A stretch of 64,000 bases of DNA, from NCBI RefSeq assembly GCF_000315365.1, contig NZ_CAOS01000008.1, positions 124,001-188,000 of the forward strand. Direction: 5' to 3'. Below the pieces are notes generated by a model. It had not been told where the DNA came from. It saw nothing but the letters and a program-made list of their open reading frames with translations, and made no database searches. Made by a program: the position numbers and the translations under genes. The stretch comes from Desulforamulus hydrothermalis Lam5 = DSM 18033. GTDB lineage: Bacteria; Bacillota; Desulfotomaculia; Desulfotomaculales; Desulfotomaculaceae. This document shows, piece by piece, positions 1,755 to 53,781 of the stretch (its first letter is position 1; each line of letters opens with the position of its first letter).

Positions 1755-2420
1755 TTAGAAAATTCTGCTGGCACCCCGGTACCGGGCACTCCAATAACTG
1801 TCAAGGAGAGAGTCTATTTTAATACCCCGGGAACTGGAAGCATGAATAAATTCGTTATTGCCCAGGTAAATACCCGAATGATTGATGCCCTGGCCGCCGG
1901 TATGAAAGAAAACCAAGTCGCCGGGCCGCAGTTCATCCTTTGCAATGGCTGTGCCTGCCTGATACTGCCCGGCAGCAGTATGCACCAGATCAATGCCAAA
2001 GTTTTTAAACACATACCGCACATAACCGGAGCAATCAAAACCTGCCGGGCTTTCGCCGCCGGCACGATACCTGACACCAATATACTGTTTGGCAAAATCC
2101 AGCACAGCCAGCGCCCTGTCGGCCATACCCCGGGATACGTTGGCGGCATTCGCTGTTACCGGTCTGGCAGCCTGGCCCGACGGTTGGTCAGGCAAGTTTA
2201 ATACTTGACCGATTTGTAAAGCATCACCGGTTAAATTGTTTAATTTTTTAATGTTGTCCACCGTAGTGCCGTTACTCTGTGCAATGGCCCACAGGGTATC
2301 GCCCTGCTTCACCGTCACCTGAGCGCCCTCGGCAGTTCCGCTCCAAACAGCGGCGGTCAGACCAACCGCTGCCGCCAGGACTGCCAGTCTTTTGCTAAAA
2401 GACAACTTCACCTTCCCCAC
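1755..2420 (-). CDS. LysM-NlpC/P60 peptidoglycan endopeptidase
   Basis: A 221-residue secreted wall hydrolase. It has a signal peptide (about 1-33), one LysM peptidoglycan-binding module (about 34-78) and a C-terminal NlpC/P60 cysteine-peptidase domain (about 105-221). The catalytic Cys is in DCSGYV (Cys130) and the His in NHSGIYLG (His181), with a further His193 in FIHA. Such enzymes cut D-Glu/diaminopimelate bonds in stem peptides during wall remodelling. The gene stands alone and its leader is a c-di-AMP riboswitch, matching the known link between c-di-AMP and wall lytic enzymes. Confidence 0.9.
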   Translation of the reverse strand: MGKVKLSFSKRLAVLAAAVGLTAAVWSGTAEGAQVTVKQGDTLWAIAQSNGTTVDNIKKLNNLTGDALQIGQVLNLPDQPSGQAARPVTANAANVSRGMADRALAVLDFAKQYIGVRYRAGGESPAGFDCSGYVRYVFKNFGIDLVHTAAGQYQAGTAIAKDELRPGDLVFFHTGGQGINHSGIYLGNNEFIHASSSRGIKIDSLLDSYWSARYRGASRIF

Positions 2421-2425
2421 TTTCT

Positions 2426-2531
2426 ACGCCTACGGAGTTAGCTGACGGGTTCGGACTGAAAGTTAGCCCGCTGCCTGACGGTAGTTCACCCCAAAAGATC
2501 GGTTCCCCCGTTTTCACAAGAAATTAGGCGT
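2426..2531 (-). promoter_or_regulatory. c-di-AMP (ydaO/yuaA) riboswitch
   Basis: Read on the minus strand, the leader has the ydaO/yuaA signature blocks in order: ACGGGGGAACC, GGGGTGAA, CCGAACCCGTCAGCTAAC and GTAGGCG, closed by a CGCCT/AGGCG outer stem. It lies a few bases before the NlpC/P60 gene. In this family c-di-AMP binding normally turns expression off. Confidence 0.92.
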
Positions 2532-2703
2532 TTTTATTTAACTGGTAATTTAGTCTATTACCAATTTCGCCGAAAGTTTCCATTTTCCTGCTTTTTAAAT
2601 CTTTTAATGCTAAAGCTGCGGATAATTTTCATAATTCACCTTAATTTTGGCAATAATTTTGGTGTTATTGCTTTAATTAAGTTATGTTAGAAGGAGAAGC
2701 CTC

Positions 2704-10089: not shown

Positions 10090-10226
10090 TAAAATTTATC
10101 CCCCTTCATTTTATAAATCAAGCTTAGTATTTCCGTCGTGTTCGATACTATAACTAACATTTTTCCAATTTTTATAGGTGGACGAATTATTGGAAACCCT
10201 GTACAATATTGCATAAGTTTAAAAAA

Positions 10227-10361
10227 GGCCGAATCTCCGGCAGAACCGGAGTACGGGGGACTATCCTTCCCGGGGTGAATCAGCTCTCTTAAAGCAAGGC
10301 AAGCGGACAGAGAGCGGTAGGGTACCCTTCAACCCGAACCCGTCAACTAACCTCGAAGGCC
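10227..10361 (+). promoter_or_regulatory. c-di-AMP (ydaO/yuaA) riboswitch
   Basis: The leader shows the ydaO/yuaA blocks in order: ACGGGGGAC, CGGGGTGAAT, AGGGTACCCTTCAACC, CCGAACCCGTCAACTAAC and CTCGAAGGC, closed by a GGCC/GGCC outer pairing. It ends about 20 bases before the LysM-SleB gene. Confidence 0.95.
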
Positions 10362-10380
10362 AAAAGGAGGGTAATACTAT

Positions 10381-15890: not shown

Positions 15891-16157
15891 TCAAACTGTC
15901 GGCAAAGGATGTAAAGCAAAGTAAGGCGGTTTTATGATCCCCTGTCGGCGACTTGTCGAAGCACCGGTCACAGCACTTGATGAGCGAAAGGAGCCCTTGG
16001 GGTGGCGCCCACAGGACGTGGGCGCCAGCCGAACCGGGCCAGGATGGCCCGTTTGAGGCGACCCCAGGGGCCACCGGAGCGAATCATAGTGCTGTCGGTG
16101 CGTAGACCGGAGCCAAAGGGGATCATAAACCACCGGTAATGTTTGTGGACACTCTGA
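15891..16157 (-). repeat. fold-back repeat element, copy 1 (flanked by duplicated terminator hairpins)
   Basis: A 267-bp copy of a dispersed repeat found four times in the window; its reference orientation is minus here. Its best-preserved terminal repeat reads TCAGAGTGTCCACAAAC. Inside the ends are complementary blocks, GGTGGTTTATGATCCCC and GGGGATCATAAAACC, so the whole element can fold back. It lies downstream of gltD between two similar hairpins: CGCCCCCTTTTTAAGGGGGCG (16158-16179, read minus) directly after gltD and GCCCCCCTTTAAGGGGGCG plus TTTTT (15890-15867). Open frames inside are not conserved between copies, so it is treated as non-coding. Confidence 0.88.
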
Positions 16158-17700: not shown

Positions 17701-20700
17701 TTAGTTGCCGCTGATCCGGGATTTATCTTTTTTATTTTCCTCAAAGGCCGCCAAAACAGCCTGTTCCCCGCTCAAGCCGGCTTCGTAGGCTCGTTTAAGG
17801 GCTTCTGTCATGCGCTTATAGTCCTTGGGAATTACCCGCACAAACTTGGGCTGCAGCAATGCCCAATTCTCCAACACCCTTTGGGCAACCGTACTGCGGG
17901 TATAGTTAAAGTGGCGCCTGATTAATTCCTGCACTTCTTTAATTTCCGCAGCATCAGACAGTTCTTCCAGCAGCACCATTTCCCGGTTGCAGCGGCCGGG
18001 GAAAGTACCGTCTTCATCCAGCACATAGGCAATTCCGCCTGACATGCCGGCTGCAAAGTTTCTGCCGGTGGAACCAAGCACTACCACCCGGCCGCCGGTC
18101 ATATATTCACAGCCATGATCGCCGACACCTTCCACCACTGCCCGGACACCGCTGTTTCTGACGCAGAACCGTTCGCCCGCCACACCCCTGATATAAGCTT
18201 CGCCGCCGGTAGCCCCGTAGAAAGCCACATTGCCAATAATGATGTTTTCTTCCGGCCTAAAAGTGGCGCCGGCAGGCGGCAGAACGATAATTTTGCCGCC
18301 GGAAAGGCCTTTGCCCAGGTAGTCGTTGGCATCCCCTTCCAGTGTCATGGTTATGCCTTTGGGAACAAATGCCCCAAAGCTTTGTCCGGCACTGCCGGTA
18401 AAGGTCAGCTGAATGGTATCTTCAGGCAAGCCGGCTGCCCCGTAACGCCTGGTAACCTCACTGCCCAGCATGGTACCAACCACCCGGTTGGTATTGCGTA
18501 TGGGCAGGCTGGCCTGCACAGGGCGGCCGTGTTCCAGGGCGGGCTGGCAAACGGGCAAAAGTTGCTGCCAATCGAGAGATTTCTCCAGCCGGTGATCCTG
18601 GGCTATGCGGCAGTATCTGCCAACGCTTTCCGGCACCGCCGGCCGGTAAAGCAGCGGGGAAAGATCCAGCCCCTTTCTTTTCCAGTGGTTAATAGCTTCG
18701 CTCACTTCCAGAACGTCTGTCCGGCCCACCATTTCATTGACTGTACGGAATCCCAGTTGAGCCATAATCTCCCGCATTTCCTGGGCAATAAAACGCATTA
18801 AGTTAATCACATGTTCCGGCTTGCCGCTGAAGTTTTTGCGCAGCTCAGGGTTTTGGGTAGCAATACCCACCGGGCAGGTATCCAGGTTGCAAACCCGCAT
18901 CATAACACAGCCCATGGCCACCAGGGGAGCGGTGGCAAAACCGTATTCCTCGGCACCCAGCAGGGTAGCAATGACCACATCCCGCCCGGTCATCAGCTTG
19001 CCGTCGGTTTCCACCACAATCCTGTCACGCAGTTTATTCAGCACCAAGGTTTGATGGGTTTCGGCCAGGCCTAACTCCCAGGGCAGCCCGGCATGCCTGA
19101 TACTGGTACGGGGCGAAGCACCGGTACCCCCATCGTAACCGCTGATCAGCACCACATCCGCCCGTCCTTTGGCCACCCCTGCGGCAATGGTTCCTACCCC
19201 CACTTCAGATACCAGTTTAACGTTGATGCGGGCCCTGGGGTTGGCGTTTTTCAAATCGTGAATTAATTGGGCCAGGTCTTCTATGGAGTAAATGTCGTGA
19301 TGGGGCGGTGGCGATATTAAGCCCACACCGGCAGTGGTGCCCCGCACTTCAGCCACCCAGGGATATACTTTGCCGCCGGGCAGTTGGCCCCCTTCGCCGG
19401 GTTTTGCCCCTTGGGCCATCTTAATTTGAATCTCGTCCGCATTAACCAGGTAGTTGCAGGTGACGCCAAATCTGCCCGAGGCCACCTGTTTTATGGCGCT
19501 GCGCCGGGAGTCACCGTTGGCATCCGGTATAAAGCGGGCCGGATCCTCTCCGCCTTCGCCGGTATTGCTCTTGCCGCCGATACGGTTCATGGCAACAGCC
19601 AAACATTCGTGGGCCTCTTTGCTGATGGATCCAAAGGACATGGCACCGGTTTTAAAACGGCGGCAGATATCCTCCACCGACTCCACTTCCTCAATGGGAA
19701 CCGGCGGCCGGTTGGATTTAAAGGCAAACAGCCCTCTGATGGTGCAATTCTTCTGCACTTCCTGATCAAGCAGGCTCGCATATTGCTTATACAGGCTGTA
19801 ATCACCGTTGCGGCAGGCCTGCTGCAAATAATAGATCACCCGGGGATTATACATGTGCTCTTCCCCGTCATGCCGCCACTGGTGGGCGGAACCTGAATCC
19901 AGGGTGTTGTCAGTTCCTGCATACGCCCTTTGGTGGCGCAGCTCCACCTCCCGGGCGATGCCGGCCAGGTCAAGGCCGCCAATGCGGGAGGAGGTCCAGG
20001 TAAAGTATTGGTCAATAACTGACCGGTGAATACCCACTGCCTCAAAGATTTGGGCCCCGCAATAACTTTGGATGGTAGAAATGCCCATCTTGGACATGAC
20101 CTTAACGACACCCTTGGTGGCCGCCTTAATGTAATTTTTGACTGCATCCCGGTACTCCACGTCCCGCAGATACCCCTGGTCAATCATTTGCTGCAGGGTG
20201 GCAAAGGCCAGATACGGGTTAATGGCATTGGCGCCGTAACCCAGCAGGACGGCAAAATGGTGTACTTCCCGGGGCTCCCCGGACTCCAGCAGCAGGCTTA
20301 CCCGGGTGCGGCTGCCTTGGCGGATCAAATGGTGGTGCAGGCCGCTTACAGCCAGCAGGGCCGGTATGGCCGCCTGTTCTCCGGTTACGCCGCGGTCGGA
20401 CAGGATCAGCAGGTTGGCGCCGTCGGCCACGGCCCGGTCGGCTGCCTGAAACAGGTTATCCAACCCTTTGGCCAGCCCCGCAGCACCTTCGGCAATATTA
20501 AAGAGTATGGGCAAAGTAACCGTTTGAAACCCTGCCCGCCGGAGGCAGCGCAGTTTGGCCAGGTCCTGGTTGCTTAAAATTGGTGTTTTGATTCTAATTC
20601 TGCGGCAGCTGTCAGGCTCCGGTTGGATCAGGTTCTTCTCCGAGCCCAGGGTGGTTTCGGTGGCGGTTATAATTTCCTCCCGGATAGCATCAATGGGCGG

Positions 20701-22290
20701 GTTGGTAACCTGAGCAAACAACTGTTTAAAGTAGTTATACAGCAACTGCGGTTTTTCTGACAGCACCGCCAGCGATGCGTCATGGCCCATGGCCCCCACC
20801 GGGTCTACGCCGTTTTTGGCCATTGGCTCCAGTATTTTCACCAGGTCCTCATGGGTGTAGCCAAAGACCTGCTGCAGCTGATTAATGTTTTCGCAGGCGG
20901 GCTGCCGGTCAGCGGGCGCTGCCGGCAGGTCTTCCAGGCTGACCATGTATTCATTGATCCATTGGCGGTAAGGATAGGCAGAGGCAATTTGCTTTTTTAG
21001 CTCCTCATCCGAGACAATCCGTCCTTCCCCGGTATCTACCAGCAGCATGCGCCCAGGCCGCAGGCGGTCTTTATAAGCCACTTTCTCCGGCGGGATATCC
21101 AGCACGCCTACTTCGGAAGCCAAAACAATCATGTCATCCTTAGTTACATAATAACGGGAAGGCCGCAAGCCGTTACGGTCCAATACCGCACCGATAATAC
21201 TGCCGTCGGTAAAGGCAATGGCCGCCGGTCCGTCCCAGGGTTCCATCAGGCAGCTGTGATACTCATAAAAGGCCTTCTTTTCGTCACTCATGCTTTCATG
21301 GTGGGACCATGGCTCGGGAATCATCATCATGGCTGCGTGGGGCAAGGAGCGTCCCGCCAGATAAAGGAACTCCAGCGTGTTGTCAAACATCAAGGAGTCG
21401 CTGCCCTCCTGGTCAATTACCGGCAAAATTTTGGCCAGATCCTCACCAAACACATCAGACCGGCACATGGCCTGGCGGGCGTGCATCCAGTTGACATTGC
21501 CGCGCAAGGTATTAATCTCACCGTTGTGAATTAAATAGCGGTAAGGGTGGGCCCGTTCCCAACTGGGGAAAGTATTGGTGGAAAAACGGGAATGTACCAG
21601 CGCCAGGGCAATTTTGATTTGCGGGTCCTGCAAATCAAGGTAGAATTTGTTTAATTGGTCCGGCGTCAGCATGCCCTTGTAAACAACGGTACGGGAGGAC
21701 AGGCTGGCAAAATAAAAGGTTTCTCCTTCATTTAATAACGACCGGCGCGCTTCTTTACGGGCGCGCTTGCGGATTACATACAGTTTCCTTTCAAAAGCCA
21801 AGTTATCGGTTAACTGTGCATGAGCCGCCAAAAATACCTGCCAAATGGCAGGCTGAGCCATTTTGGCTGTTTCGCCAAGCATGGCATTGTTTACGGGAAC
21901 TTCGCGCCAGCCCAGCAGGGTTTGGCCTTCCTCCTGCACTATCCGCTCCAAAAGACGCCGGCAGGCAGCCCGGCGGTTTGGGTCGGTGGGCAAGAAAAGC
22001 ATACCCACGGCGTACTGTCCGGCGGCCGGCAATTGTATATTTAACTTGGCGCACTCTTTGACAAAGAACTCATGGGGTAGCTGCATCAGGATACCGGCCC
22101 CGTCACCTGTATCAGGCTCCGCCCCCTGGCCACCGCGGTGGTCAAGATTCACCAGCAGGTTCAGGGCCTGCTGTAAAATTTCGTTAGACTTTTTCCCCTT
22201 AATATTGGCTACAAAGCCAATACCGCAGGCATCGTGTTCAAATTGCGGGTCGTATAAACCCTGTTGGCGGGGAAATCCGGCACTAGTCAT
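17701..22290 (-). CDS. gltB: glutamate synthase large subunit
   Basis: A 1529-residue enzyme that makes two glutamates from glutamine and 2-oxoglutarate. It carries a class-II amidotransferase domain whose catalytic Cys22 (DACGIGF) is exposed after removal of a short propeptide. A central domain, the FMN-binding synthase domain with [13 protein letters not shown], and the 3Fe-4S motif CNLDTCPVG follow, and a GXGXG beta-helix domain closes the protein. The start at 22290 follows AAAGGGCAGG. It leads the gltBD operon and follows glnA1 after 149 bases, with a 14-bp palindrome in between. Confidence 0.97.
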
Positions 22291-22439: not shown

Positions 22440-23774
22440 TTAGAATTTGGTGAGATATTCTTCCAACTCCCAGGGGCTTACCTGCATCCGGTAGCGATCC
22501 CACTCAATGGTTTTGGCTTCCATATATCTTTCAAAAATATGCGGCCCCAGTGCTTCTTTAATTACTTCATCGGCAGCCAGGGCTTTTAAAGCCTCCGCCA
22601 GGTTCTCCGGCAGGTTGCCAATACCCAGGGCCTGGCGCTCTGCCAGGGTCATTTCATAAATGTTCCTGTCACAGGGCGGCGGCGGTACCATCTTCTTCTT
22701 AATACCGTCCAGACCGGCCTTTAAGCAAACGGCCAGCGCCAAATAGGGGTTGCAGGAAGGATCCGGGCTGCGCAATTCAATGCGGGTGGACATCCCCCGT
22801 TTAGCCGGAATACGAATTAGCGGGCTGCGGTTGCGGGATGACCAGGCCACATAGACCGGCGCTTCGTAACCGGAAACCAGACGCTTGTATGAGTTGACAG
22901 TGGGGTTGGTAATGGCCGAAATGGCCTGGATATGGTTCATCAGCCCGGCAATATATTGCATGCTTACTTCACTCATGCCAATGGGAGCATTGGGATCATA
23001 AAAGGCATTCTGGCCATCCATGGTAATCAGGGACTGGTTTAAGTGCATGCCGGAACCGGCCATGCCAAAAACCGGCTTGGGCATAAAGGTGGCATGCAAA
23101 CCGTGGCGCTGGGCAATGGTGCGCACAGCCAGCTTGAAGGTAACAATTTTATCCGCAACATCCAGGGCATCGGAATATTTAAAGTCGATTTCGTGCTGAC
23201 CCGGTGCCACTTCATGGTGGGAAGCCTCTATTTCAAACCCCATCTGTTCCAGGGTTAAGACCATATCCCGGCGGGCGTCTTCCCCCAGGTCGATGGGTGT
23301 CATATCAAAGTAACCGGCCCGGTCATGGGTTTTGGTGGTAGGACGCCCGTCGGCATCCACATGGAATAAGAAAAACTCCGCCTCAGGCCCTACATTCATG
23401 GTGTACCCCATTTCGGCCGCTTCAGCAATGGCCCGGCGCAGGGCATAACGGGGGTCACCGATAAAAGGGGTGCCGTCCGGATTATAAATATCACAAATCA
23501 GGCGGGCCACTGCACCCTCCCGCGGTTTCCAGGGAAATACCACAAAGGTGTTGGGATCCGGCCGCAGGTACATATCCGATTCTTCAATGCGCACAAAACC
23601 CTCAATGGAGGAGCCGTCAAACATCATTTCTCCTTCCAGGGCTTTATCAAGCTGCTCAACGGTGATGGCGACGTTTTTTAATACCCCGAAAATGTCGGTA
23701 AACTGCAAGCGGATAAACTTTACATGTAGGTCCTTACACAATTGCCTAACATCGTCGTTAGTCAGTTTAGCCAC
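22440..23774 (-). CDS. glnA: glutamine synthetase, type I-alpha
   Basis: A 444-residue GSI enzyme that condenses glutamate and ammonium with ATP. All active-site motifs are intact: MFDGSS (ammonium site), [25 protein letters not shown] (metal His), GYEAP (flap Glu) and RIELRSPD (metal Glu). There is no adenylylation tyrosine loop, as expected for the alpha subtype of Firmicutes, which is regulated by feedback inhibition. It starts at GTG 23774 behind AGAAAGGTG. An ANTAR-type leader with terminator precedes it, and gltBD follows. It is very similar to glnA2 next door. Confidence 0.96.
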
Positions 23775-23825: not shown

Positions 23826-23906
23826 AAAAAAACCTACACGCAGGGCATGAAAAAACTTACCCGCTGCAGGCCTCGTTGCCTAATAACCAAGCACACCGTT
23901 GTGCTT
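23826..23906 (-). promoter_or_regulatory. ANTAR-type dual-hairpin leader and terminator, glnA1
   Basis: On the minus strand P1 is AAGCAC-AACGGT-GTGCTT (23906-23889) and P2 is AGGC-AACGAG-GCCT (23881-23868). Both have six-base loops with A at position 1 and G at position 4. The 3' arm of P2 is the start of the terminator stem CCTGCAG...CTGC...AGG, which ends in TTTTTTT (to 23826). P2 and the terminator are therefore mutually exclusive, the known ANTAR antitermination layout. Confidence 0.88.
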
Positions 23907-25655: not shown

Positions 25656-25737
25656 AAAAAATAAAACGCCCCATGATGAAGGGACAGTGCTTATCCCTCC
25701 ACCAACAGGCGCCATTGCCGCGGACATCATTGTACCG
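25656..25737 (-). promoter_or_regulatory. ANTAR-type dual-hairpin leader and terminator, glnA2
   Basis: P1 is CGGTAC-AATGAT-GTCCG (25737-25721, one bulged T) and P2 is GGC-AATGGC-GCC (25719-25708). Both loops have A1 and G4. The 3' arm of P2 begins the terminator: CGCC...GAGGGA...TCCCTTC...GGCG, then TTTTATTTTTT. The P2 core is identical to that of the asnB leader. Confidence 0.85.
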
Positions 25738-25769: not shown

Positions 25770-26357
25770 TTATTTAATGCTGTGCGCTAAAATAATCGCT
25801 TCCGCCACAGCCCGCATGGAAATGCGCTTGTTCATACTCTGCCTTTGCATGCGTTTATATGCTTCTTCTTCGCTTAGTTTCATGGTTTGCATCAGAATAC
25901 CCTTGGCTTTTTCCACCAGTTTTCGGGTTTCCAGGGTGTCCCGCAGGTCTTTGAGCTGTTTTTCCAGTTTAACAATTTCCTGATAATTAGCTAATGCTAA
26001 TTCCACTGCCGGCCATAAGGCATGTTCCTCCACAGGTTTTTGGAGTATGCTGAATACCCGGGCCTCCCGCGCTTTCTCGATGGTATCCTGCCGCAAGTAA
26101 TCGGTAGTTAAAATTACCGGCCCCAACTGATCTTCATACATAATACGGGCTACCTCCAGGCCGCTGATACCCTGCAAACAATCCTGAATGATTAACAAAT
26201 CCGGGTGTCGGTTGCGCACCAATTGCAGCGCACCGGGACCGTCAGAAGCATCTCCCACAACAAGGCAGCCCAGTTTTCCTAGCAAGGTTTTGATATGCTT
26301 GCACCACGCCTCATCTGCATCTACGATGACAATTCGTGGATTCGCCACCGGGATCAC
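25770..26357 (-). CDS. ANTAR-domain response regulator, atypical receiver
   Basis: A 195-residue protein with an N-terminal receiver-like domain (about 7-120), a coiled-coil linker and a C-terminal ANTAR RNA-binding domain (about 135-192; RKLVEKAKGILM, AYKRMQRQSM, RAVAEAII). ANTAR proteins bind paired hexaloop hairpins and stop terminators forming. The phosphoacceptor position holds Gln58 (LLIIQD, with Asp one residue later), while the acidic pocket (VDADE) and Lys107 remain, so ordinary phosphorylation is doubtful. Its own leader is an ANTAR-type site, implying autoregulation. No sensor kinase is adjacent. Confidence 0.92.
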   Translation of the reverse strand: MIPVANPRIVIVDADEAWCKHIKTLLGKLGCLVVGDASDGPGALQLVRNRHPDLLIIQDCLQGISGLEVARIMYEDQLGPVILTTDYLRQDTIEKAREARVFSILQKPVEEHALWPAVELALANYQEIVKLEKQLKDLRDTLETRKLVEKAKGILMQTMKLSEEEAYKRMQRQSMNKRISMRAVAEAIILAHSIK

Positions 26358-26368
26358 CTCTCAAACGC

Positions 26369-26434
26369 AAAAAGCCCAGACAGGTACACCACCTGTCCGG
26401 GCAACATTGCCATGATAAGATACATCATTGTATC
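26369..26434 (-). promoter_or_regulatory. ANTAR-type dual-hairpin leader and terminator, autoregulatory
   Basis: P1 is GATAC-AATGAT-GTATC (26434-26419) and P2 is GGC-AATGTT-GCC (26411-26400). Both loops have A1 and G4. The 3' arm of P2 starts the strong terminator GCCCGGACAGGT...ACCTGTCTGGGC plus TTTTT. It ends 12 bases before the ANTAR gene. Confidence 0.9.
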
Positions 26435-26524
26435 CCTTGTATTCAACTATAGCTGTATTATAGAGTACCTTTGATAATCAGTCAATAGTCTTTAGTCAAG
26501 TATACACAATCCGGCCGGGAAGGG

Positions 26525-28102
26525 TTAGCCAAGAATTTGCTCCACTTCGTCGGCATCAGCTTCCATAACGTATTTAATGCCGCTGATCTGAGCTGCTTCC
26601 GGGGTTAAAGCCACCAGGTCATCCCGGGTAATGTATTCCAGGCTGAACTTGCGGGCGCCGCACATAAATTGGCGCAGGCCCTGGGCCAGGCGCTCAAAGT
26701 AGGTGTAAACGCCAATGGCGCCTACCGGCAGGTCGGCAAAGCGATCGCCCAGTTTTTCCTTCAAGGCGGATGCGTTAATGAAGATTTGCTCCAGGTTTTC
26801 GCCGTACTTCTTATACTCATTGGGAACCTTGCCGCTCTTCAGCATTTCACCGATATTCTTGCCCACCATGGCAGCGGTAAGAGCGGAACGTGCCATGCCA
26901 ATAGCCTTCACATAGGGGGCACTCATGGCAAAGCCTTTGAACATATGGTCTTCCAGAGTGAAGCCGCCGGCAATGGCGATGGGCGGTACATATTCGCCCT
27001 TGGCAGCCAGTTTATCGCAGTATTGGGTCAGCAGCGACTGGATGTATACCGTGGGTACGCCCCATTCATTCATCATGCGCCAGGGGCTCATGCCGGTACC
27101 GCCGCCGGCGCCGTCCACTGTCAGCAGGTCAATCTTAGCCAGCGAAGCAAACTTAACGGCCCGGGCCAGGTCTGCCGGACGGTAAGCACCGGTTTTTAAG
27201 AAAATATACTTGGCCCCGGCTGCCCGCAGTTCTTCTACCCGCTTCAAGAAACCTTCTTCAGTAACCATACCGATACGGGAGTGCCGTTCAAACTCTTTAA
27301 AGGCACCGGCTTGATAGGCTTCTTGCACTTTGGGGTCTTCCGGGTTGGGCAACACGATATAGCCGCGGCCCTTTAACTGCAGTGCCCGTTCCAGTGTGTT
27401 CAGTTTTACTTCGCCGCCGATGTCTTTGGCGCCCTGGCCCCATTTAATTTCTACCGCTTCAACGCCCAGTTTTTCAATGGCATATTCCTGCACGCCCAGG
27501 TTGGTATCTTCCACGTTGGCCTGCACAGCAATAAATCCTGCCCCTTGATACCATTCCTGGAAGTCTTTGACACGTTTGGCCAGGTTGGGGGAATGAACGA
27601 CACGTCCGTTTTTAATTTCTACATTGGGGTCCATGGCGCAGACGTTTTCGCCGATGGCAATACCGGCACCGGAAATGGCACAGCCGGCTGCCAGGTGGTC
27701 CCAGTTATCTGCAGCCACGTTGGTGGAACCCATAGCTGCCACTACAATGGGGGTGGACAGCTTGAGGTCTTTGTTGGCACCCAGGTAGGTATCCAGGTTT
27801 ACTGCCGGGAAAATAGCCTTATCGGGGTCCGCTTCGATACCATGGGCTCCTACTGCGGTACCCATAATATTAAAGTGTGAATAATCAATGGGATAGTCCT
27901 TTTGGGAAGCGGATGTAATCTTGCCAAAGGGCTGGGGATAAAGAACCTCTTTGCCCCGGACGGCTGATTTGCCTATTTCGCAAAAGCCCGGGCAGCCGTC
28001 CAAACAGGTGGTGCACATGCCGCTGAAAGGACAGTAGCTTTCGGGTGTGCGCAGTTTGGTGAGAGTAGCGGTACTGGCGTTGGTGCCTTTACTGTAAGTC
28101 AT
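26525..28102 (-). CDS. FMN-dependent glutamate synthase-family protein
   Basis: A 525-residue protein related to the FMN-binding synthase domain of glutamate synthase, as in the stand-alone archaeal-type proteins. The N-terminus has a cysteine cluster, CPFSGMCTTC followed by CPGFC (about residues 24-41), likely an Fe-S site. The TIM-barrel part contains VDGAGGGTGMSPW and AIAGGF, typical of the FMN site. It has no glutaminase domain, so it would need ammonia or a partner. It follows glnA3 after 59 bases, which suggests a shared transcript and a joint role in nitrogen transfer; the true substrate is unknown. Confidence 0.82.
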   Translation of the reverse strand: MTYSKGTNASTATLTKLRTPESYCPFSGMCTTCLDGCPGFCEIGKSAVRGKEVLYPQPFGKITSASQKDYPIDYSHFNIMGTAVGAHGIEADPDKAIFPAVNLDTYLGANKDLKLSTPIVVAAMGSTNVAADNWDHLAAGCAISGAGIAIGENVCAMDPNVEIKNGRVVHSPNLAKRVKDFQEWYQGAGFIAVQANVEDTNLGVQEYAIEKLGVEAVEIKWGQGAKDIGGEVKLNTLERALQLKGRGYIVLPNPEDPKVQEAYQAGAFKEFERHSRIGMVTEEGFLKRVEELRAAGAKYIFLKTGAYRPADLARAVKFASLAKIDLLTVDGAGGGTGMSPWRMMNEWGVPTVYIQSLLTQYCDKLAAKGEYVPPIAIAGGFTLEDHMFKGFAMSAPYVKAIGMARSALTAAMVGKNIGEMLKSGKVPNEYKKYGENLEQIFINASALKEKLGDRFADLPVGAIGVYTYFERLAQGLRQFMCGARKFSLEYITRDDLVALTPEAAQISGIKYVMEADADEVEQILG

Positions 28103-28161: not shown

Positions 28162-29460
28162 TTAGTAATTGGTAAGGTAGCGGGCCAATTCCCAGGGGTG
28201 AACATCATAGTGAAACTCATCCCACTCCTGGCGTTTTATTTCCATGTAGCGCTCATAGATATGATCACCCAACACCTGCCGGGCAAACCGATCCTGGCTG
28301 AGGGCTTCCAGGGCCTCGCCCAGGTTTCTCGGCACCCGGTCTAAGGTAACATCCTCATCCAGCGAAACCGGCAGCGGGAGCTTTTCTTCAATCCCCTTGA
28401 GGGCCGCCTGCATAATTAAGGACAGGGTTAAATAAGGGTTGCAAGTAGCATCCGGACTGCGCAGGATGAGGCGGGTATCCTGGCCCCGCCGGGCGGGTAC
28501 CCGCATCATGGAATTTCTGTTGCCTTCGGACCATCCTTTTAACACCCGGTCTAATTCAGAATTGCCCAGCCGTTTATACGAATTTACCAGCGGATTGGCT
28601 ACTGCCGTAATGGCCGAAGCATGATCGGTAATACCGGCGATAAAGCCACCCGCCAGCGAACTCAGGCCGTACGGGCCGGCCGGGTCATCCAGGACATTGG
28701 CATCCTGGCGCCACAAGCAAAGATTTAAGGCCATGCCGGAACCACTGTGTTTGGCCAGCGGTTTGGGCATAAAGGAAGCATGCAAACCATGGCGCTGGGC
28801 AATGGTGCGCACCACAAATTTAAAGGTGGCAATTTTATCAGCCATACTCAAGGGGCTTTCTTCCCGCAGCACAATCTCATGCTGGCCGGGGGCATTTTCG
28901 TGATGACTGGCAACTATTTGAAAGCCCATTTCCTCCAGTGTCAGTACCATATCACGGCGGGCGTTTTCCCCCAAATCTATGGGTGTTAAATCACAAATGC
29001 CGCCGCTGTCATGGGGTTGCGGCAAGGGACGGCCCTGCTGGTCGGTGTGAAACAGAAAAAATTCTATCTCGGCTCCCACAGTAAGGTCTAACTCTGTTTT
29101 GGCAAACACCTGCAGGGATTCTCTCAGTTTGCTTCTGACACAACCAGGATAAGGCCTGCCCGCCGCATCAACCACATCACAAATCAGGCGGGCCACCGCT
29201 CCTTCCCGGGGACGCCAGGGGAATACCTGAAAGGTTACGGGATCCGGCTTTAAAAATACATCCCTTTGTCGGGAACCGTATTGCCCCTCCAGCACAGCGC
29301 TGTCAAAGCCTACCTTTGATTGCAAGGCTCTTGCCAATTCTTCAACCGTAACGGCAATATTTTTAAAAGACCCCTGGATATCAGTAAACTGCAGACGCAC
29401 AAACTTGACATGATATTCCTGGGCTTTTTCCATCACTTCCTGGGCGGTAACAGGCTGCAT
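28162..29460 (-). CDS. glutamine synthetase-like protein lacking key active-site residues
   Basis: A 432-residue GSI homologue, full length but divergent. It keeps the Glu pairs of AEIEFFLF (Glu131, Glu133) and HHENAPGQHEI (Glu188, Glu195). It has Ala244 where GSI has the metal His (GSGMA), Ile332 where RIELR has the metal Glu, SELD (301-304) in place of the YEAP flap with its proton-abstracting Glu, and FDSA instead of FDGS. It is therefore unlikely to be an ordinary glutamine synthetase. It may be a regulatory pseudoenzyme or a ligase for another substrate. It lies upstream of the FMN-synthase gene with a terminator-controlled leader. Confidence 0.85.
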   Translation of the reverse strand: MQPVTAQEVMEKAQEYHVKFVRLQFTDIQGSFKNIAVTVEELARALQSKVGFDSAVLEGQYGSRQRDVFLKPDPVTFQVFPWRPREGAVARLICDVVDAAGRPYPGCVRSKLRESLQVFAKTELDLTVGAEIEFFLFHTDQQGRPLPQPHDSGGICDLTPIDLGENARRDMVLTLEEMGFQIVASHHENAPGQHEIVLREESPLSMADKIATFKFVVRTIAQRHGLHASFMPKPLAKHSGSGMALNLCLWRQDANVLDDPAGPYGLSSLAGGFIAGITDHASAITAVANPLVNSYKRLGNSELDRVLKGWSEGNRNSMMRVPARRGQDTRLILRSPDATCNPYLTLSLIMQAALKGIEEKLPLPVSLDEDVTLDRVPRNLGEALEALSQDRFARQVLGDHIYERYMEIKRQEWDEFHYDVHPWELARYLTNY

Positions 29461-29523: not shown

Positions 29524-29583
29524 AAAAAATCCCAACCGGAACTCAGGTCATCGCCTGCGTTCCGGTTGGGACCCCTTTGCCCC
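29524..29583 (-). promoter_or_regulatory. terminator leader with one ANTAR-type hairpin, glnA3
   Basis: The strong terminator CCCAACCGGAAC...GTTCCGGTTGGG plus TTTTTT (29570-29524) is preceded by an overlapping hairpin GGGGC-AAAGGG-GTCCC (29583-29568) whose loop has A1 and G4. No convincing second hairpin is seen further upstream, so this is a partial match. Confidence 0.65.
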
Positions 29584-29673
29584 TGAAATTATTTACTTGA
29601 CATTAATATACTTGTTGATAAATAATTCGTCAATTAAATGGCGGTAGATATATTGTATACATCCCACCAACAA

Positions 29674-30255
29674 TTATGCTTCACCGGATAAAGACAAAAT
29701 AACTTTTCTGGCTATTTTGGCCAGCGAAGTGCTGTGATCCATACTTAATTTCTGCAAGTAGCGATGTGCCGCCTGTTCACTGATATTCTTTTTTTCTGCC
29801 AGCAGCCTTTTAGCCTGATCTACCAGTTTCTTTTCCTCCAGCATTTTCTTGAGCCGGCGGTTTTCCTGTTCAATTTTAACCAGCCGTTTAAATGTGGCCA
29901 GGGCCATTTCCAGCGTTGGTATGAGGTTGGCTTCATCGATGGGCTTAGTTAAATAGCCCAGCACCGAGGAAAATTTAGCTTCTTCGATCAGTTCCCGGTG
30001 ACAGTGGTGGGTTAATAATACCACCGGCGCCAGGTGGTGTTCTTCAATCACCCTGGCCACTTCCAGCCCCTTGCAACCCGGCAGCTTCCCCTCCATAATA
30101 ATGATGTCGGGCTGGCTCTGAAAGGCTGCCTGCAGGGTGCTGCGGCCATCCTCGGTTTCGGCCGCCACCAGGTAACCGTGCTGCTGCAGTAAATCTTTTA
30201 GTTTTTTTCTAAACTCCGGATCCGGGTCTGCCAGCAGGACGCGCCTTCCAAACAA
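29674..30255 (-). CDS. ANTAR-domain regulator with Glu at the phosphorylation site
   Basis: A 193-residue receiver-ANTAR protein. I start it at TTG 30255 because GGAGG lies 8 bases upstream and the length then matches its relatives; the frame is open to 30363 without a better site. The phosphoacceptor position is Glu55 (IIIMEGKLPG), a natural mimic of phospho-Asp, with the acidic pocket ADPDP and Lys (TKP) kept. The ANTAR part (about 130-190) is the most diverged of the three in the window (AKRLLA in place of AKGILM), so its RNA preference may differ. It lies 213 bases upstream of glnA3 and is divergent from asnB. Confidence 0.88.
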   Translation of the reverse strand: MFGRRVLLADPDPEFRKKLKDLLQQHGYLVAAETEDGRSTLQAAFQSQPDIIIMEGKLPGCKGLEVARVIEEHHLAPVVLLTHHCHRELIEEAKFSSVLGYLTKPIDEANLIPTLEMALATFKRLVKIEQENRRLKKMLEEKKLVDQAKRLLAEKKNISEQAAHRYLQKLSMDHSTSLAKIARKVILSLSGEA

Positions 30256-30419
30256 ATCTGATACCTCCAAAACCCTTTGAATACTTATTGTAAAACTATC
30301 CAAAGGGAAAGTCCAGTTCAGTAAGTTTTTTCTAACTTTTCGTACAAATAAAAGGTGTGCCAAAAATTACCGCGTACATTTGGCCAACCGGCTGCGTAGG
30401 ATGGAGTATAACAGCAAAA

Positions 30420-42426: not shown

Positions 42427-42692
42427 TCAGACTGTAGACAAACATCACCGGTGGTTTATGATCCCCTTTGGCTCCGGTCTACGCACCGACAGCACTATGA
42501 TTCGCTCCGTTCGCCCTTGGGGTCGCCTCAAACGGGCCCTCCTGGCCCGGTTCGGCCGGCGCCCACGTCCTGTGGGCGCCACCCCAATGGCTCCTTTGCT
42601 CATCAAGTGCTGTTACCGGTGCTTCGACAAGTCGCCGGCAGGGGATCATAATACCACCTCACTTTGTTTTACAACCTTTGTCAACACTCTGA
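42427..42692 (+). repeat. fold-back repeat element, copy 3 (flanked by duplicated terminator hairpins)
   Basis: A 266-bp copy in plus orientation between the MCP gene (stop at 42723) and the HD-GYP gene. The ends are TCAGACTGTAGACAAAC and TTTGTCAACACTCTGA, near-perfect inverted repeats. It is flanked by GCTGCACCAATAGTGCAGC (42408-42426) and GCTGCACCAAGAGTGCAGC (42693-42711), which differ at one base in the loop. Read with the genes (minus), the order is MCP stop, hairpin, element, hairpin, TTTTTT. Confidence 0.9.
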
Positions 42693-48942: not shown

Positions 48943-50316
48943 TTAAACCGTTTTAATCGCAGAACTGCTGACCCCAGGGGCAGCTTTTATATCTCTGGTC
49001 AGGGATCCCCCGAAGGTATCCGCATAAGCGTAAGCATTTTCACCATGCACACTGACATCAAGACCTATTGCTTCATCATCGGCGGAAACCCGTAAATCGG
49101 TGAACAAGCCGATTAGTTTAAGAATAAGGAAGGTGGCCAGGCCGGCAAACACTACGGTGGCTCCTACCCCGATTAATTGTGTCACCAGTTGAGCGGCATG
49201 GCCGTAAAACAAGCCGTCTGCCCCCGCCTGGTTAACCGTCTTGCTGGCAAACAGGCCGGTGGCAACAGCCCCCCAGGTTCCGCCTACCCCGTGAATGCCA
49301 AAGGCATCCAGGGCATCGTCATAACCCAGCTTGCTTTTGACAACCGCCACCGCAAAGTAACACAGCGGGCCAACCACCAGGCCAATCAGAATAGCAGGCA
49401 ACGGAGCCACAAAACCGGCGGCCGGGGTAATGGCCACCAAACCTGCCACAGCGCCGGAAACACATCCCAGCAGGGTTGGCTTGCCATGATGGGCCCATTC
49501 TGCCAGCACCCAGGAAACCCCGCCGGCAGCAGCAGCCAGGTGGGTCACCGCAAAGGCACTGGCCGCCAGGCCGTTGGCCGCCAGGGCACTGCCGGCATTA
49601 AAACCAAACCAACCAAACCAGAGCAGTGCCGCCCCCAGCACGGTCATGGGCAGATTGTGCGGCACCATGGGTTCGCTGCCATAGCCGCGCCGCTGACCGA
49701 TGACCAGCGCCGCCACCAAACCGGCCACGCCGGAACTGATGTGTACTACCGTACCTCCGGCAAAATCCAGCGCTCCCAGCTGCATCAGCCAGCCGCCGCC
49801 CCATACCCAGTGACACAGGGGAGAGTAGACAAGGGAGGCCCACAATACAATAAAGGCAAGGAAAGCCGGAAAACGCATGCGTTCAGCCACTGACCCGGTT
49901 ATAATGGCAACCGTGATAAGAGCAAACATTAATTGAAAAGCCATAAAGATAAAGTGCGGAATGGTGCCGCTGGGCTCCTGCCCAACTCCCTGCAGTCCCA
50001 GGTAATCCAGGCCCCCGATAACCCGGCCGACATCCGGACCAAAGGCTAAGGTATAGCCGTACAAAGCCCAAATAATGCTGACCACGCAAATTACGATAAA
50101 GCTGAGCATGATGGTGCTGAGTACATTTTTCTTTCTTACCATGCCGCCGTAAAACAGCGCCAGGCCAGGGGTCATAATCATTACCAGCGCAGCGCAAATA
50201 ATGATAAAAGTAGTGTCACCGGTATCAACAACCGGCTTACCGGCGGCCCAGGCGGTGCCCGGTATAGACAGCCAGGCTAAGAGCGGCAGGAGAACTGTTT
50301 TTATCCTGTTTAGCAT
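48943..50316 (-). CDS. amtB: ammonium transporter
   Basis: A 457-residue Amt/Rh channel with eleven membrane helices after a cleavable N-terminal signal (ending AWA). Signature motifs are MTPGLALFYGGMV, the conserved Trp/Phe gate regions, GGTVVHISSGVAG with the first pore His, and AFGIHGVGGTWGA with the second. The cytoplasmic tail (about 415-457) is available for P-II binding. It forms an operon with glnK. The leader carries ANTAR hairpins and a terminator, plus a second long hairpin close to the start codon. Confidence 0.96.
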   Translation of the reverse strand: MLNRIKTVLLPLLAWLSIPGTAWAAGKPVVDTGDTTFIIICAALVMIMTPGLALFYGGMVRKKNVLSTIMLSFIVICVVSIIWALYGYTLAFGPDVGRVIGGLDYLGLQGVGQEPSGTIPHFIFMAFQLMFALITVAIITGSVAERMRFPAFLAFIVLWASLVYSPLCHWVWGGGWLMQLGALDFAGGTVVHISSGVAGLVAALVIGQRRGYGSEPMVPHNLPMTVLGAALLWFGWFGFNAGSALAANGLAASAFAVTHLAAAAGGVSWVLAEWAHHGKPTLLGCVSGAVAGLVAITPAAGFVAPLPAILIGLVVGPLCYFAVAVVKSKLGYDDALDAFGIHGVGGTWGAVATGLFASKTVNQAGADGLFYGHAAQLVTQLIGVGATVVFAGLATFLILKLIGLFTDLRVSADDEAIGLDVSVHGENAYAYADTFGGSLTRDIKAAPGVSSSAIKTV

Positions 50317-50451: not shown

Positions 50452-50526
50452 AAAACAATAAGGCTCAACAACCTAAAGCGGTTATTGAGCCTTCCTTGGC
50501 TTGTATGGGGTACATCTTTGTTCCCC
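50452..50526 (-). promoter_or_regulatory. ANTAR-type dual-hairpin leader and terminator, amtB
   Basis: P1 is GGGGaAC-AAAGAT-GTaCCCC (50526-50507) and P2 is AGCC-AAGGAA-GGCT (50501-50488). Both loops have A1 and G4. GGCT of P2 is the first part of the terminator arm GGCTCAATAACC, which pairs with GGTTGTTGAGCC and is followed by TTATTGTTTT. P2 and the terminator therefore exclude each other. This is the cleanest example in the window. Confidence 0.92.
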
Positions 50527-50606
50527 TGCTGTTAATGTTATTATATTCTCCCGGCCGGCCTTTGACAACAATTTCAGTGTGGGAATTCTGTATACTTTAC
50601 CTGCAG

Positions 50607-51182
50607 TTACAGTTCGTAACCGGTAATAATAGCCTCGGCTACCGCTTTCATGGTGGTTCTTTTTTTCATGGCGGTTTGCTGGATTACTTTAAAGGCCTGT
50701 TCTTCACTAAAACCCTTTTGCTTCATAAGTATGCCTTTGGCCCGTTCCACAATTTTGCGGGCCTGCAGGGTGGCTTGCAGTTTATGCAGCTGCTGCTGCA
50801 ACTGAGTATATTTTTGATGGGTGGCCACCGCCGCCTCCACTGCCGCATATAACTGATCTTCCAAATAAGGACGCATCAAAAAGGCCGCCGCTACCTCCCG
50901 GGCCCGTTCCACCAGCCCTTTATTTCCCTGGGATACCATCAGTACCGCCGGCGCCAGATTTTCTTCCGTTAATATCTTGGCCACCTGCATACCGTCCAAT
51001 ACCGGCAGCCGGTCGTCCAGCAGCACTGCATCGGGTGCCGTGGCACGGGCCACTTTCAGGGCATCCATACCGCCGGCAGCTTCCCCCACCACCCGGTAGC
51101 CCAGGCGGGGCAGCATGTAGCGCAGCTGTTCCAATTCTTTTTTGTTTCCGCTGGCAATGATAATCCGCTTCTGCATAATCAC
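50607..51182 (-). CDS. ANTAR-domain regulator, receiver lacking the acidic pocket
   Basis: A 191-residue receiver-ANTAR protein. It keeps an Asp at the phosphorylation position (Asp56, VLLDDRLP), but the Mg-binding acidic pair is replaced by Ser-Gly-Asn (IIASGNKK, residues 10-13) and the signalling Lys by Arg (FLMRP), so it probably does not take part in normal phosphotransfer. The ANTAR domain is canonical (RKIVERAKGILM, QQTAMKKR, KAVAEAII) and closest to that of the regulator at 25770. Its start overlaps the alr stop by four bases, so it is translated with alr. It is the gene just upstream of amtB. Confidence 0.92.
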   Translation of the reverse strand: MIMQKRIIIASGNKKELEQLRYMLPRLGYRVVGEAAGGMDALKVARATAPDAVLLDDRLPVLDGMQVAKILTEENLAPAVLMVSQGNKGLVERAREVAAAFLMRPYLEDQLYAAVEAAVATHQKYTQLQQQLHKLQATLQARKIVERAKGILMKQKGFSEEQAFKVIQQTAMKKRTTMKAVAEAIITGYEL

Positions 51183-52312
51183 TCTCCCGGCAGTCCTGTA
51201 TAAACCCGCGGTACCCTGCCGCCTACCTGGCAGACAACCTCATAGTTTATAGTACCCAGCCAGGCAGCCACTTCTTCTACCGGCAATTGGTTTTCCCCGT
51301 CCTGCCCGAAAATAATTACCGGATCGTTAACCTGTACCCCCGGGATATGCCCCACATCTACCATGCACTGATCCATACAGACCCGGCCCACCACAGGTGC
51401 CCGTCGTCCCCTTATCGACACTTGGCCCCGGGAGGAAAGCAGGCGGGGGTAACCGTCCGCATATCCGAGGGGCAGGGAAGCAACTACAGTGGGTGCCGTT
51501 ACCGTATAAGTGCAACCGTAGCTGATCTTGGTACCCGGCGCCACCCTTTTAACATGGGCCACCCTGGCTTTTAAGGTCATGGCCGGCTGCAAATTGACTG
51601 CCGCTTTATTTACCTGTTCAGACGGATATAAACCGTACATCATAATACCGGGACGCACCATGTCCAGGTAAGCTGCCGGGCAATCAATAACAGCGGCACT
51701 GTTGGCGCAATGCCGCAGCGGGAAAGAAATGCCCTGGCGGGCCAGATCCTTTAACAGGGTCAAAAAACGCTCCAGTTGCCAACTTGTATAGCTTTTATCA
51801 GTTTCGTCCGCCGCAGCAAAGTGGGTATAAATACCTTCCACCTTAAGCCCCGGCAGCCGGCAGACTTTTTCTATGGCCGCTGCTCCCTCGGCATCCGCCG
51901 GAAAACCCAGCCGCCCCATACCGGTATCCACCTTCAGGTGCACGGCAACCGAACAACCGGCAGCTGCCGCTGCCCTGGCTGCTTGTTCGGCCAGATCCAG
52001 CCGGTAAACGGTTAAGGTAAGATTATTGGTTAAGGCATCCGCCAACCGGTCCGGGCAAACATAACCAAAAATTAATATCGGTGCATCAAGGCCGGCCCGG
52101 CGCAGCTCCAGGGCTTCCGACAAACGAGCCACCGCCAACCGCGTGGCCCCGGCGGCCAGGGCCGCTTTGGCCACCGGCACGGCGCCGTGACCGTAGGCAT
52201 TGGCCTTAACCACCGCCATAATCTCCCGGTGCGGCCCCACCAGTTTTCTGACTTCCCGGATGTTATGGCCAATGGCCTGCAGATTTATTTCTGCCCAAAT
52301 TGGTTCATTCAT
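51179..52312 (-). CDS. alr: alanine racemase
   Basis: A 377-residue PLP enzyme that makes D-alanine for peptidoglycan. The PLP lysine is in AVVKANAYGHG (Lys about 36), and the partner catalytic Tyr is in KISYGCTYT (Tyr about 260), with RVCMDQCMVDV following. I start it at ATG 52312 (MNEPIWAEI) behind GCAGGTG. It is translationally coupled to the ANTAR gene downstream. A short repeat element and hairpins separate it from ald upstream. Having ald and alr side by side suggests joint handling of L- and D-alanine. Confidence 0.95.
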   Translation of the reverse strand: MNEPIWAEINLQAIGHNIREVRKLVGPHREIMAVVKANAYGHGAVPVAKAALAAGATRLAVARLSEALELRRAGLDAPILIFGYVCPDRLADALTNNLTLTVYRLDLAEQAARAAAAAGCSVAVHLKVDTGMGRLGFPADAEGAAAIEKVCRLPGLKVEGIYTHFAAADETDKSYTSWQLERFLTLLKDLARQGISFPLRHCANSAAVIDCPAAYLDMVRPGIMMYGLYPSEQVNKAAVNLQPAMTLKARVAHVKRVAPGTKISYGCTYTVTAPTVVASLPLGYADGYPRLLSSRGQVSIRGRRAPVVGRVCMDQCMVDVGHIPGVQVNDPVIIFGQDGENQLPVEEVAAWLGTINYEVVCQVGGRVPRVYTGLPGE

Positions 52313-52397
52313 TTTGTTCACCTGCCAGCAAGCAACAATATCCACATTGTCCCTATTGTAGCACAAACTAAAAAAAAATGCTTGGCTGTGCCAAGCA

Positions 52398-52509
52398 TCA
52401 GAGTGTCACAAACATTACCGGTGGTTTATGATCCCCTGTGGCTCCGGTCTAAGCGCCGACAGGGGATCATAAACTTCCTCACTTTGTTTTACAGCCTTTG
52501 TTTACAGTC
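52398..52509 (+). repeat. fold-back repeat element, copy 4 (internal deletion)
   Basis: A 112-bp derivative in plus orientation that keeps both ends (TCAGAGTGTCACAAACATT and CACTTTGTTTTACAGCCTT) but lacks about 155 bp of the centre, joining CCGGTCTAAGC directly to GCCGACAGGGGATCAT. It lies downstream of ald. Flanking hairpins are ATGCTTGG...CCAAGCAT (52378-52398) and AATGCCTGG...CCAGGCATT (52511-52534). They differ by a compensatory base-pair change. The T-tract (nine T's, read minus) is only at the alr side. Confidence 0.87.
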
Positions 52510-52543
52510 AAATGCCTGGCGATTGCCAGGCATTTGCGGGTTT

Positions 52544-53668
52544 TTATAAACTGCCGATTACTTTCTCCAGAGGAGTATACTCTAAATTCAGGGCTTCTGC
52601 TACCGCCTTAAAAGTGCATCGGCCGTCCACCACATTGACTCCTTTGGCCAACGCACAGTTCTCCCGGACAGCCTTCAACCAGCCCTTGTTGGCCAGCTGC
52701 AGGGCGTAGGGCAAGGTTACATTGGTCAGGGCAAAGGTGGAAGTGCGGGCTACGGCACCGGGCATGTTAGCCACCGAATAGTGAATTACCCCGTATTTTT
52801 CGTAGGTTGGTTCGCTGTGGGTGGTTACCCGGTCAATGGTTTCAATGGAACCGCCCTGGTCAATGGCCACATCAACGATAACCGAGCCGGGCTTCATATT
52901 TTTAACCATTTCTTCAGTTACCAGCCGGGGGGCTTTGGCCCCGGGAATTAACACTGCCCCCACCAGCAGGTCGGCTTTTTTAACAGCCTCAGCAATATTG
53001 TAGCTGTTTGACATTACGGTATGGATGCGGCCGCCGAACAGGTCGTCCAGGTAGCGCAGGCGATCCACGTTAACATCCAGAATGGTGACGCTGGCTCCCA
53101 AACCCATGGCCATTTTGGCTGCGTTGGTGCCAACAATACCACCGCCGACAATGACAACTTCGGCTGCCGGCACACCGGGAACACCGCCCAGCAGGACACC
53201 GGCGCCGCCGTAGGTTTTTTCTAAATAGCGGGCACCGATTTGGATAGCCATACGGCCTGCCACTTCTGACATAGGAGTCAGCAAGGGGAGGGATCCGTTG
53301 TCCAATTGAATGGTTTCATAAGCTATGCCGACAACTTTTTTCTGCAGCAAGGCCCGCGTCAGTGCCGGCTCGGGTGCCAGGTGCAAGTAAGTAAAAAGTA
53401 CCTGGCCTTCTTTAAATAAATCATACTCGGGCGGCAGGGGTTCCTTGACTTTCATTATCATGTCGGCCCTGTCAAATACCTCTTTGGCGGTATCCACAAG
53501 CTGCGCCCCGGCTGCCAGATAGTCCTCATCTGAAATACCGCTGCCCAGACCGGCCCGCTGTTCAATAATCACCTGATGACCGTTACTCACCATGGCATGT
53601 ACGCCGGCAGGGGTAATGGCCACACGGTTTTCATTATTTTTAATTTCTTTTGGTACTCCGATAATCAC
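52544..53668 (-). CDS. ald: alanine dehydrogenase
   Basis: A 374-residue NAD-dependent enzyme that interconverts L-alanine and pyruvate plus ammonium. It begins [16 protein letters not shown], has the substrate residues in [11 protein letters not shown] and TYLHLAPEP, and the nucleotide-binding [10 protein letters not shown]. Length is typical. The start is GTG 53668 behind AAGGAGG; the longer open frame to 53725 lacks a site. Two symmetrical inverted repeats lie in its upstream region. It can either assimilate ammonium or release it from alanine, which fits the nearby amtB and ANTAR genes. Confidence 0.95.
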
Positions 53669-53781
53669 AGAGGTCGCCTCCTTAGAAGATGAGTTGCCTA
53701 ATATTAATTGCAAGATCAATGCCAAAAAAATATACCGCTGTTTTACCCGAAAACCAAGCCGTTAAAACCGTTTGTTTATTT

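Follow-up and report, generated by a model that had tools for sequence, protein, structure and literature searches.

A glutamine synthetase-fold protein lacking catalytic residues, encoded beside an ANTAR gene in Desulforamulus hydrothermalis, as a candidate nitrogen sensor

Why should a bacterium that encodes two ordinary glutamine synthetases (GS) maintain a third, under selection, in which part of the active site is missing? This question is raised by glnA3 of Desulforamulus hydrothermalis Lam5 = DSM 18033, which lies on a 64,000-nucleotide stretch of contig NZ_CAOS01000008.1 (GCF_000315365.1, positions 124,001 to 188,000 of the forward strand); this whole stretch is referred to as the window. 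The 2.69-Mb genome contains exactly three GS genes, all in a single window cluster with the minus-strand order ANTAR1, glnA3, gltF, ANTAR2, glnA2, glnA1, gltB, gltD. It likewise encodes exactly three ANTAR proteins, all within the window. A preliminary description of this DNA, made from the letters alone, proposed that GlnA3 keeps the GS fold without GS chemistry, and its open reading frame was found as described, on the minus strand and 432 aa in length. The genes concerned are as follows.

17701–22290, minus strand: gltB, glutamate synthase large subunit, full length
22440–23774, minus strand: glnA1, ordinary type I GS (GSI) with complete catalytic residues
24294–25628, minus strand: glnA2, ordinary GSI with complete catalytic residues (the reading frame opens at 25730; likely start at 25628)
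25770–26357, minus strand: ANTAR2, receiver-like domain (Gln at the phospho-Asp position) and ANTAR domain
26525–28102, minus strand: gltF, FMN-type glutamate synthase-like protein without a glutaminase domain
28162–29460, minus strand: glnA3, GS-fold protein without the n2 His, the n2 Glu and the flap Glu
29674–30363, minus strand: ANTAR1, receiver-like domain (Glu at the phospho-Asp position) and ANTAR domain
48943–50316: amtB
50607–51182, minus strand: ANTAR3, the only other ANTAR protein encoded in the genome, adjoining amtB and P-II

The true start of ANTAR1 probably lies inside the called reading frame, its orthologues being about 193 aa long. The N-terminus of GltF is rich in Cys (CPFSGMCTTCLDGCPGFC), and no NCBIfam model scores above its cut-off for this protein. 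ANTAR3 has alanine racemase/alanine dehydrogenase genes on one side and amtB with P-II on the other (window 50488–53725), and its receiver retains the Asp with the other receiver residues degenerate. Two c-di-AMP riboswitches are also present in the window (2411–2540, minus strand; 10217–10376, plus strand).

Active-site residues of GlnA3

GlnA3 carries Ala244 as the counterpart of the metal ligand His244 of GlnA1 and GlnA2, Ile332 as the counterpart of the metal ligand Glu333 of GlnA1, and FDSA (residues 52–55) in the D50 loop where both paralogues have FDGS. These substitutions, already pointed out in the preliminary description, are real, and the same losses are seen repeatedly within a clade of 49 proteins. 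The flap of GlnA3 (NSYKRL-GNSELDR) aligns without indels from NSYKRL to the next WS, placing ELDR opposite YEAP, with Leu303 opposite the catalytic Glu and Glu302 opposite Tyr. The earlier pairing of SELD with YEAP was therefore one position out of register, but the loss of the catalytic Glu that it implied stands. The other metal glutamates (E131 and the n1 ligands E133, E188, and E195) are retained, as had been stated, together with the arginines that contact the substrates (glutamate and phosphates). In Salmonella/B. subtilis GS numbering, the n2 site consists of the lost His, the lost Glu, and E131 and holds the phosphates of ATP, and the flap Glu closes the active site. The single metal site reported as lost is n2, with n1 retained, and the combined loss of n2 and the flap Glu means that GlnA3 most likely performs no ligation of ammonium to glutamate.

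Residues 5–432 of GlnA3 are collinear in phmmer alignments with the solved GS chains of the B. subtilis type and contain no displaced segments, which rules out the supply of the missing residues from another segment of the protein. A domain search returned the GS domains PF00120 (333 bits) and PF03951 (81 bits) and no periplasmic-binding-protein fold. Against the NCBIfam glutamate-ammonia ligase model TIGR00653, GlnA3 scores 377.4, below the cut-off of 429.15; some of its orthologues, e.g., that of locus L039, still pass this cut-off and are thus likely misannotated. The closest named relative, from Desulforamulus putei, is 90% identical. GlnA3 shares with the GSI-alpha enzymes of the B. subtilis GlnA type (TIGR00653) the fold, length, n1 site, substrate arginines, and catalytic Asp of the D50 loop, but differs from them in lacking the n2 His and Glu, the flap Glu, and Arg62 and in falling below their model cut-off. 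Taken as sequence evidence, these features strongly indicate that GS chemistry has been lost and that GlnA3 is a GSI-derived pseudoenzyme, most likely unable to ligate ammonium to glutamate.

A conserved clade with graded losses

GlnA3 was sought in 60 relatives and, in a wider search, in 398 genomes of the phylum. Within the order (Desulfotomaculales), a GS gene directly follows ANTAR1 in 42 loci, with gltF nearly always next, and both the flap Glu and the n2 Glu are missing from all 42 of these proteins. Outside the order, the 398 genomes contain intermediates that have FDSSV and no flap Glu yet retain the n2 Glu. In a tree, all GlnA3-type proteins group together, to the exclusion of ordinary GS (SH-aLRT 100). 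In a second tree, from which the catalytic columns were dropped, sub-clade I (n = 11, n2 Glu kept), sub-clade II (n = 49, n2 Glu lost), and ordinary GS still separate, with supports of 82, 93, and 99; the GlnA3 of the window falls in sub-clade II.

In sub-clade II, the n2 site is depleted (E333 in 0/49, H244 in 18/49, E131 in 39/49), and the flap Glu survives in a single protein of the 49. The n1 site is largely intact (E133 in 47/49, E188 in 48/49, E195 in 43/49), as are D53, R298, and R316 (49/49 each), R335 (48/49), and R321 (47/49). Arg62, which locks the inhibited state in feedback-inhibited GS, is Arg in only 4/49. Novel features of the sub-clade are Cys156 (48/49; Phe in GS), Ser54 replacing Gly, and Arg or Lys at position 64. 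Since the same losses run through a 49-protein clade spanning many genera, the substitutions in GlnA3 are not due to chance, and the proposal of a GS fold without GS chemistry can be extended, by the same sequence criteria, to the whole clade. Sub-clade I lacks the flap Glu, and most of its members retain the n2 ligands. Because a sister sub-clade has the metals but no flap Glu, the loss appears to have been stepwise: the D50 loop and flap likely changed first, followed by loss of the n2 Glu, with the change of H244 to Ala likely arising in the own family of the window protein.

The loss of ammonium handling would also be expected if GlnA3 were a ligase for another amine, i.e., a gamma-glutamylamide synthetase. 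Known enzymes of this kind differ from GS at the ammonium-handling residues. Such a function would be consistent with the n2 ligands of most sub-clade I proteins and with the acidic residue that lies one position before the lost flap Glu in 28/49 and 10/11 proteins of sub-clades II and I. However, the n2 Glu is absent from 49/49 proteins of sub-clade II, including GlnA3 of the window, and GlnA3 scores 264.7 against the gamma-glutamylputrescine synthetase model NF045547, whose cut-off is 650. An amine ligase is thus considered improbable.

One trait of GlnA3 would agree with a duplicate in decay, namely that it evolves faster than both of its paralogues: in the comparison with D. putei, dN/dS is 0.064 for GlnA3, 0.026 for GlnA1, 0.022 for GlnA2, and 0.10 for ANTAR1. 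These values nevertheless show that glnA3 is under purifying selection, which is looser than that on the true enzymes. The gene is also full length in many genera and keeps a conserved attenuator, and the sole copy with stops (L013) belongs to an assembly in which most neighbouring genes are broken. Decay, which the preliminary description had already discounted, is rejected on the strength of purifying selection and conservation and retains almost no plausibility. In L013 and L033 (Desulforamulus aquiferis Bs105), most genes of the same cluster are interrupted by frameshifts or stops, probably through assembly error.

Certain clade members, those of L015, L027–L029, and the second copy in L034 (13821–15001), have no ANTAR neighbour. 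A histidine kinase and a response regulator are encoded upstream of the clade member in L028 and L034, and a glutamate dehydrogenase gene adjoins the ANTAR-less member in L028 and L015.

ANTAR neighbours and RNA elements

Across the order, ANTAR1 lies directly upstream of the GlnA3-type gene on the same strand in the 42 loci. The ANTAR stop and the GS start share 4 nt in L102, L104, L109, and L113, and in L067 the order is ANTAR-GS-ANTAR. The phospho-Asp is present in 26/56 ANTAR1 and 13/36 ANTAR2 proteins, and in none of the 56 ANTAR1 proteins does it occur together with both the conserved Lys and the second acidic-pocket residue. Judged by these residues, the ANTAR1 and ANTAR2 receivers look poorly suited to phosphorylation, though a third to a half of them keep the Asp.

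In three loci (L157:329-1462, L158:329-1462, and L159:3117-4250), a 377-aa GS-derived protein with weak GS similarity is encoded between ANTAR and GltF. It lacks the D50 loop, HHE/GQHE, GSGMH, the flap, and the n2 Glu segment altogether, yet its dN/dS of about 0.15 indicates purifying selection. It can be argued from the retention of a fully dead GS in this position that the slot between ANTAR and gltF does not need catalysis. In a mirror-tree analysis, the correlation between GlnA3 and ANTAR1 rates was gone once ANTAR2 and GlnA2 distances were controlled for.

Such mirror-tree distances bear on a different assignment, in which GlnA3 is a non-catalytic subunit mixed into the GlnA1/GlnA2 dodecamer, where it would tune or inhibit the enzyme. 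Since GSI active sites are formed between neighbouring subunits, a dead subunit would disable the sites that it shares. The full-length GS alignment and the presence of GlnA3, GlnA1, and GlnA2 in one cluster fit this arrangement, as does the correlation of GlnA3 with GlnA2 distances after controlling for GltF and GlnA1 (r 0.72). On the other hand, much of the contact sequence is missing from the reduced form in L157–L159, and the adjacency of the ANTAR gene, with its 4-nt overlap, is left unexplained. A mixed oligomer is therefore regarded as unlikely, though not far-fetched.

Two roles had been suggested for GlnA3 at the outset, as a partner of the ANTAR proteins or of the FMN-type synthase GltF. 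The first appears to fit best on gene adjacency, the 4-nt overlaps, the degenerate receivers, and the ANTAR-type hexaloop of the glnA3 leader described below. The second is the weaker, including in its broader form, in which GlnA3 would belong, as a structural or regulatory subunit, to whichever glutamate-forming enzyme is encoded next to it, GltF or, in some genomes, glutamate dehydrogenase. GltF follows GlnA3 in nearly all loci of the order, and in L104 and L028 the gene after that of the clade member encodes a glutamate dehydrogenase. However, relatives of GltF occur in 108/398 genomes of the phylum, some of which have no GlnA3-type gene alongside (none within about 1.5 kb in L142, L143, and L147), and two sister genomes have a gene other than gltF after the GS gene (glutamate dehydrogenase in the one that was scanned). 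GlnA3 and GltF rates are also uncorrelated (r 0.13, P 0.15). The evidence thus makes a subunit of this kind a rather poor candidate.

The association of ANTAR RNAs with glutamate synthase genes had been described for D. reducens, and D. acetoxidans was reported to have 13 of these RNAs (Ramesh et al., 2012, PMC3369931); the RNA side of the system is therefore known. A covariance model was built here from the dual-hexaloop motif before glnA1, with A1 and G4 in each loop, and its copies in related loci. Its three top matches genome-wide are the following.

23868–23906, minus strand: dual-hexaloop ANTAR RNA motif upstream of glnA1, best match genome-wide
26400–26435, minus strand: dual-hexaloop ANTAR RNA motif upstream of ANTAR2, with a terminator (26402–26374) after it
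50488–50525, minus strand: dual-hexaloop ANTAR RNA motif before amtB

The 100% pairing of these motifs arises by construction, as pairing was used in their selection, while their covariation exceeds that of shuffles. The promoter-like sites and overlapping terminators found at these motifs fit antitermination. In related loci, the model matches before glnA1 (28), ANTAR2 (25), glnA2 (21), and gltB (9), with one weak match for GlnA3. Upstream of ANTAR1, GlnA3, and GltF, the model and a motif search gave nothing firm for a canonical dual hairpin. The window also holds two Rfam TwoAYGGAY RNAs (15954–16108, plus strand; 42476–42629, minus strand), whose AYGGAY loops have A1 and G4 like the ANTAR hexaloops.

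The attenuated leader that had been attributed to glnA3 was found, with three elements.

29605–29633, minus strand: promoter-like site TTGACG-17-TATATT (a consensus match only)
29568–29583, minus strand: hexaloop hairpin GGGGC-AAAGGG-GTCCC of the ANTAR P2 type (loop A1 and G4)
29524–29572, minus strand: intrinsic terminator (29572–29530 and U tract)

As the 5′ arm of the terminator includes the 3′ arm of the hairpin, the two structures are mutually exclusive. The hairpin occurs in 45/57 clade leaders searched, and its 3′ arm lies inside the terminator stem in 42 of these 45. The search pattern fixed several hairpin bases but left the outer pair free and allowed C at the fourth pair; under this pattern, the fourth pair is G-U in 45/45, and the outer pair covaries (G-C in 23, A-U in 17, and U-G in 2 of the 45). 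Both the hairpin and the terminator structures show covariation above shuffles. In the genome of the window, matches to the AA form of the pattern are confined to the glnA3 leader, and Rfam returned no credible family for this leader even at a permissive threshold.

The ANTAR dual-hairpin RNAs of Ramesh et al. (2012, PMC3369931) precede glutamine/glutamate synthase genes and genes for ammonium transporters, as do the dual-hexaloop motifs found here, whereas the glnA3 leader has a single hexaloop hairpin in which one G-U pair never varies, and it lacks a canonical P1. The dual-hexaloop model gave no match to a P1 hexaloop upstream of the glnA3 P2, and within 34 nt 5′ of P2 none was seen in the clade leaders, that of L035 excepted. 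The predicted start of transcription leaves too little room upstream of P2 for a canonical first hairpin. Because its loop obeys the ANTAR rule, the glnA3 hexaloop is read as half of an ANTAR site; given that a canonical P1 is lacking, the leader may not be an ANTAR target, and a different binder is possible.

GlnA3 as a candidate sensor

With the parts required for catalysis lost, yet the gene kept under strong selection beside that of an RNA-binding regulator of nitrogen genes, GlnA3 probably senses nitrogen status instead of acting as an enzyme. The best explanation at hand, given an even chance of being correct, is that this pseudoenzyme, by sensing glutamate or glutamine, controls the neighbouring ANTAR antiterminator. 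For its ligand, its contact with ANTAR, and the direction of control, we infer the following scheme. GlnA3 would bind glutamate, glutamine, or a nucleotide in the retained site and would contact the receiver-like domain of the adjacent ANTAR1 through the reshaped D50 loop and flap. ANTAR1, and perhaps ANTAR2 and ANTAR3, would then be held or released by GlnA3 according to nitrogen status. Once released, the ANTAR protein would bind the hexaloop hairpins before glnA1, glnA2, ANTAR2, gltB, and amtB and prevent termination. As the glnA3 leader sets one hairpin against a terminator, glnA3 itself would be placed in a feedback loop. Against this scheme speak the mirror-tree result for ANTAR1, the phospho-Asp retained by many of the receivers, the lack of a canonical P1 in the glnA3 leader, and the clade members that have no ANTAR gene next to them.

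A GS fold without a GS role has a eukaryotic counterpart in lengsin, a vertebrate lens protein that differs from GlnA3 in being structural and of unrelated context. The sensors AmiC and NasS have the periplasmic-binding-protein fold, which is not GS-like, whereas the candidate sensor GlnA3 has the GS fold. In the AmiC-AmiR and NasS-NasT systems, an ANTAR protein is held by a partner that binds a small molecule (PMC3795266; PMC3369931). Common to these systems and to GlnA3-ANTAR1 is an ANTAR gene located beside that of the sensor, or candidate sensor in the case of GlnA3; the receivers of AmiR and NasT are not driven by a kinase, as may also hold for ANTAR1. A GS also serves as the nitrogen sensor for a regulator, the role proposed for GlnA3, in the feedback-inhibited GS of the GlnR/TnrA circuit (PMC9249791). 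GlnR docks on the flap and D50 loop of GS (PMC9249791), the very parts that are remodelled in GlnA3. However, the sensor of the GlnR/TnrA circuit is the active enzyme and its regulator binds DNA, while GlnA3 is a separate dead paralogue whose ANTAR neighbour binds RNA.

Nitrogen-related ANTAR regulons have been known in these bacteria since 2012, and a conserved dead GS beside an ANTAR gene provides a concrete candidate for their sensor. No report of the pseudo-GS or of its attenuator was found in the open-licence papers searched. In a wider formulation, advanced tentatively and with odds slightly against it, a pseudo-GS would serve ANTAR antiterminators as their dedicated ligand sensor throughout an order of anaerobic Firmicutes and also outside it. 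GS would have been turned stepwise into the partner of an RNA regulator, with changes first in the flap and D50 loop, then in the n2 site, and, in one lineage, with almost all of the catalytic core gone, and glnA3 would itself be under a new single-hexaloop attenuator. If true, bacteria would thereby offer an uncommon example of an enzyme converted to a regulator whose intermediate stages survive.

Independent divergent GS proteins, with an ANTAR gene directly after the GS gene, also occur in the Lachnospiraceae loci L078, L079, and L082. In L079, FGGAA replaces FDGSS and GEKA replaces NRSP, so that the catalytic Asp is lost as well. The Lachnospiraceae pair looks like a second origin of GS-ANTAR pairing.
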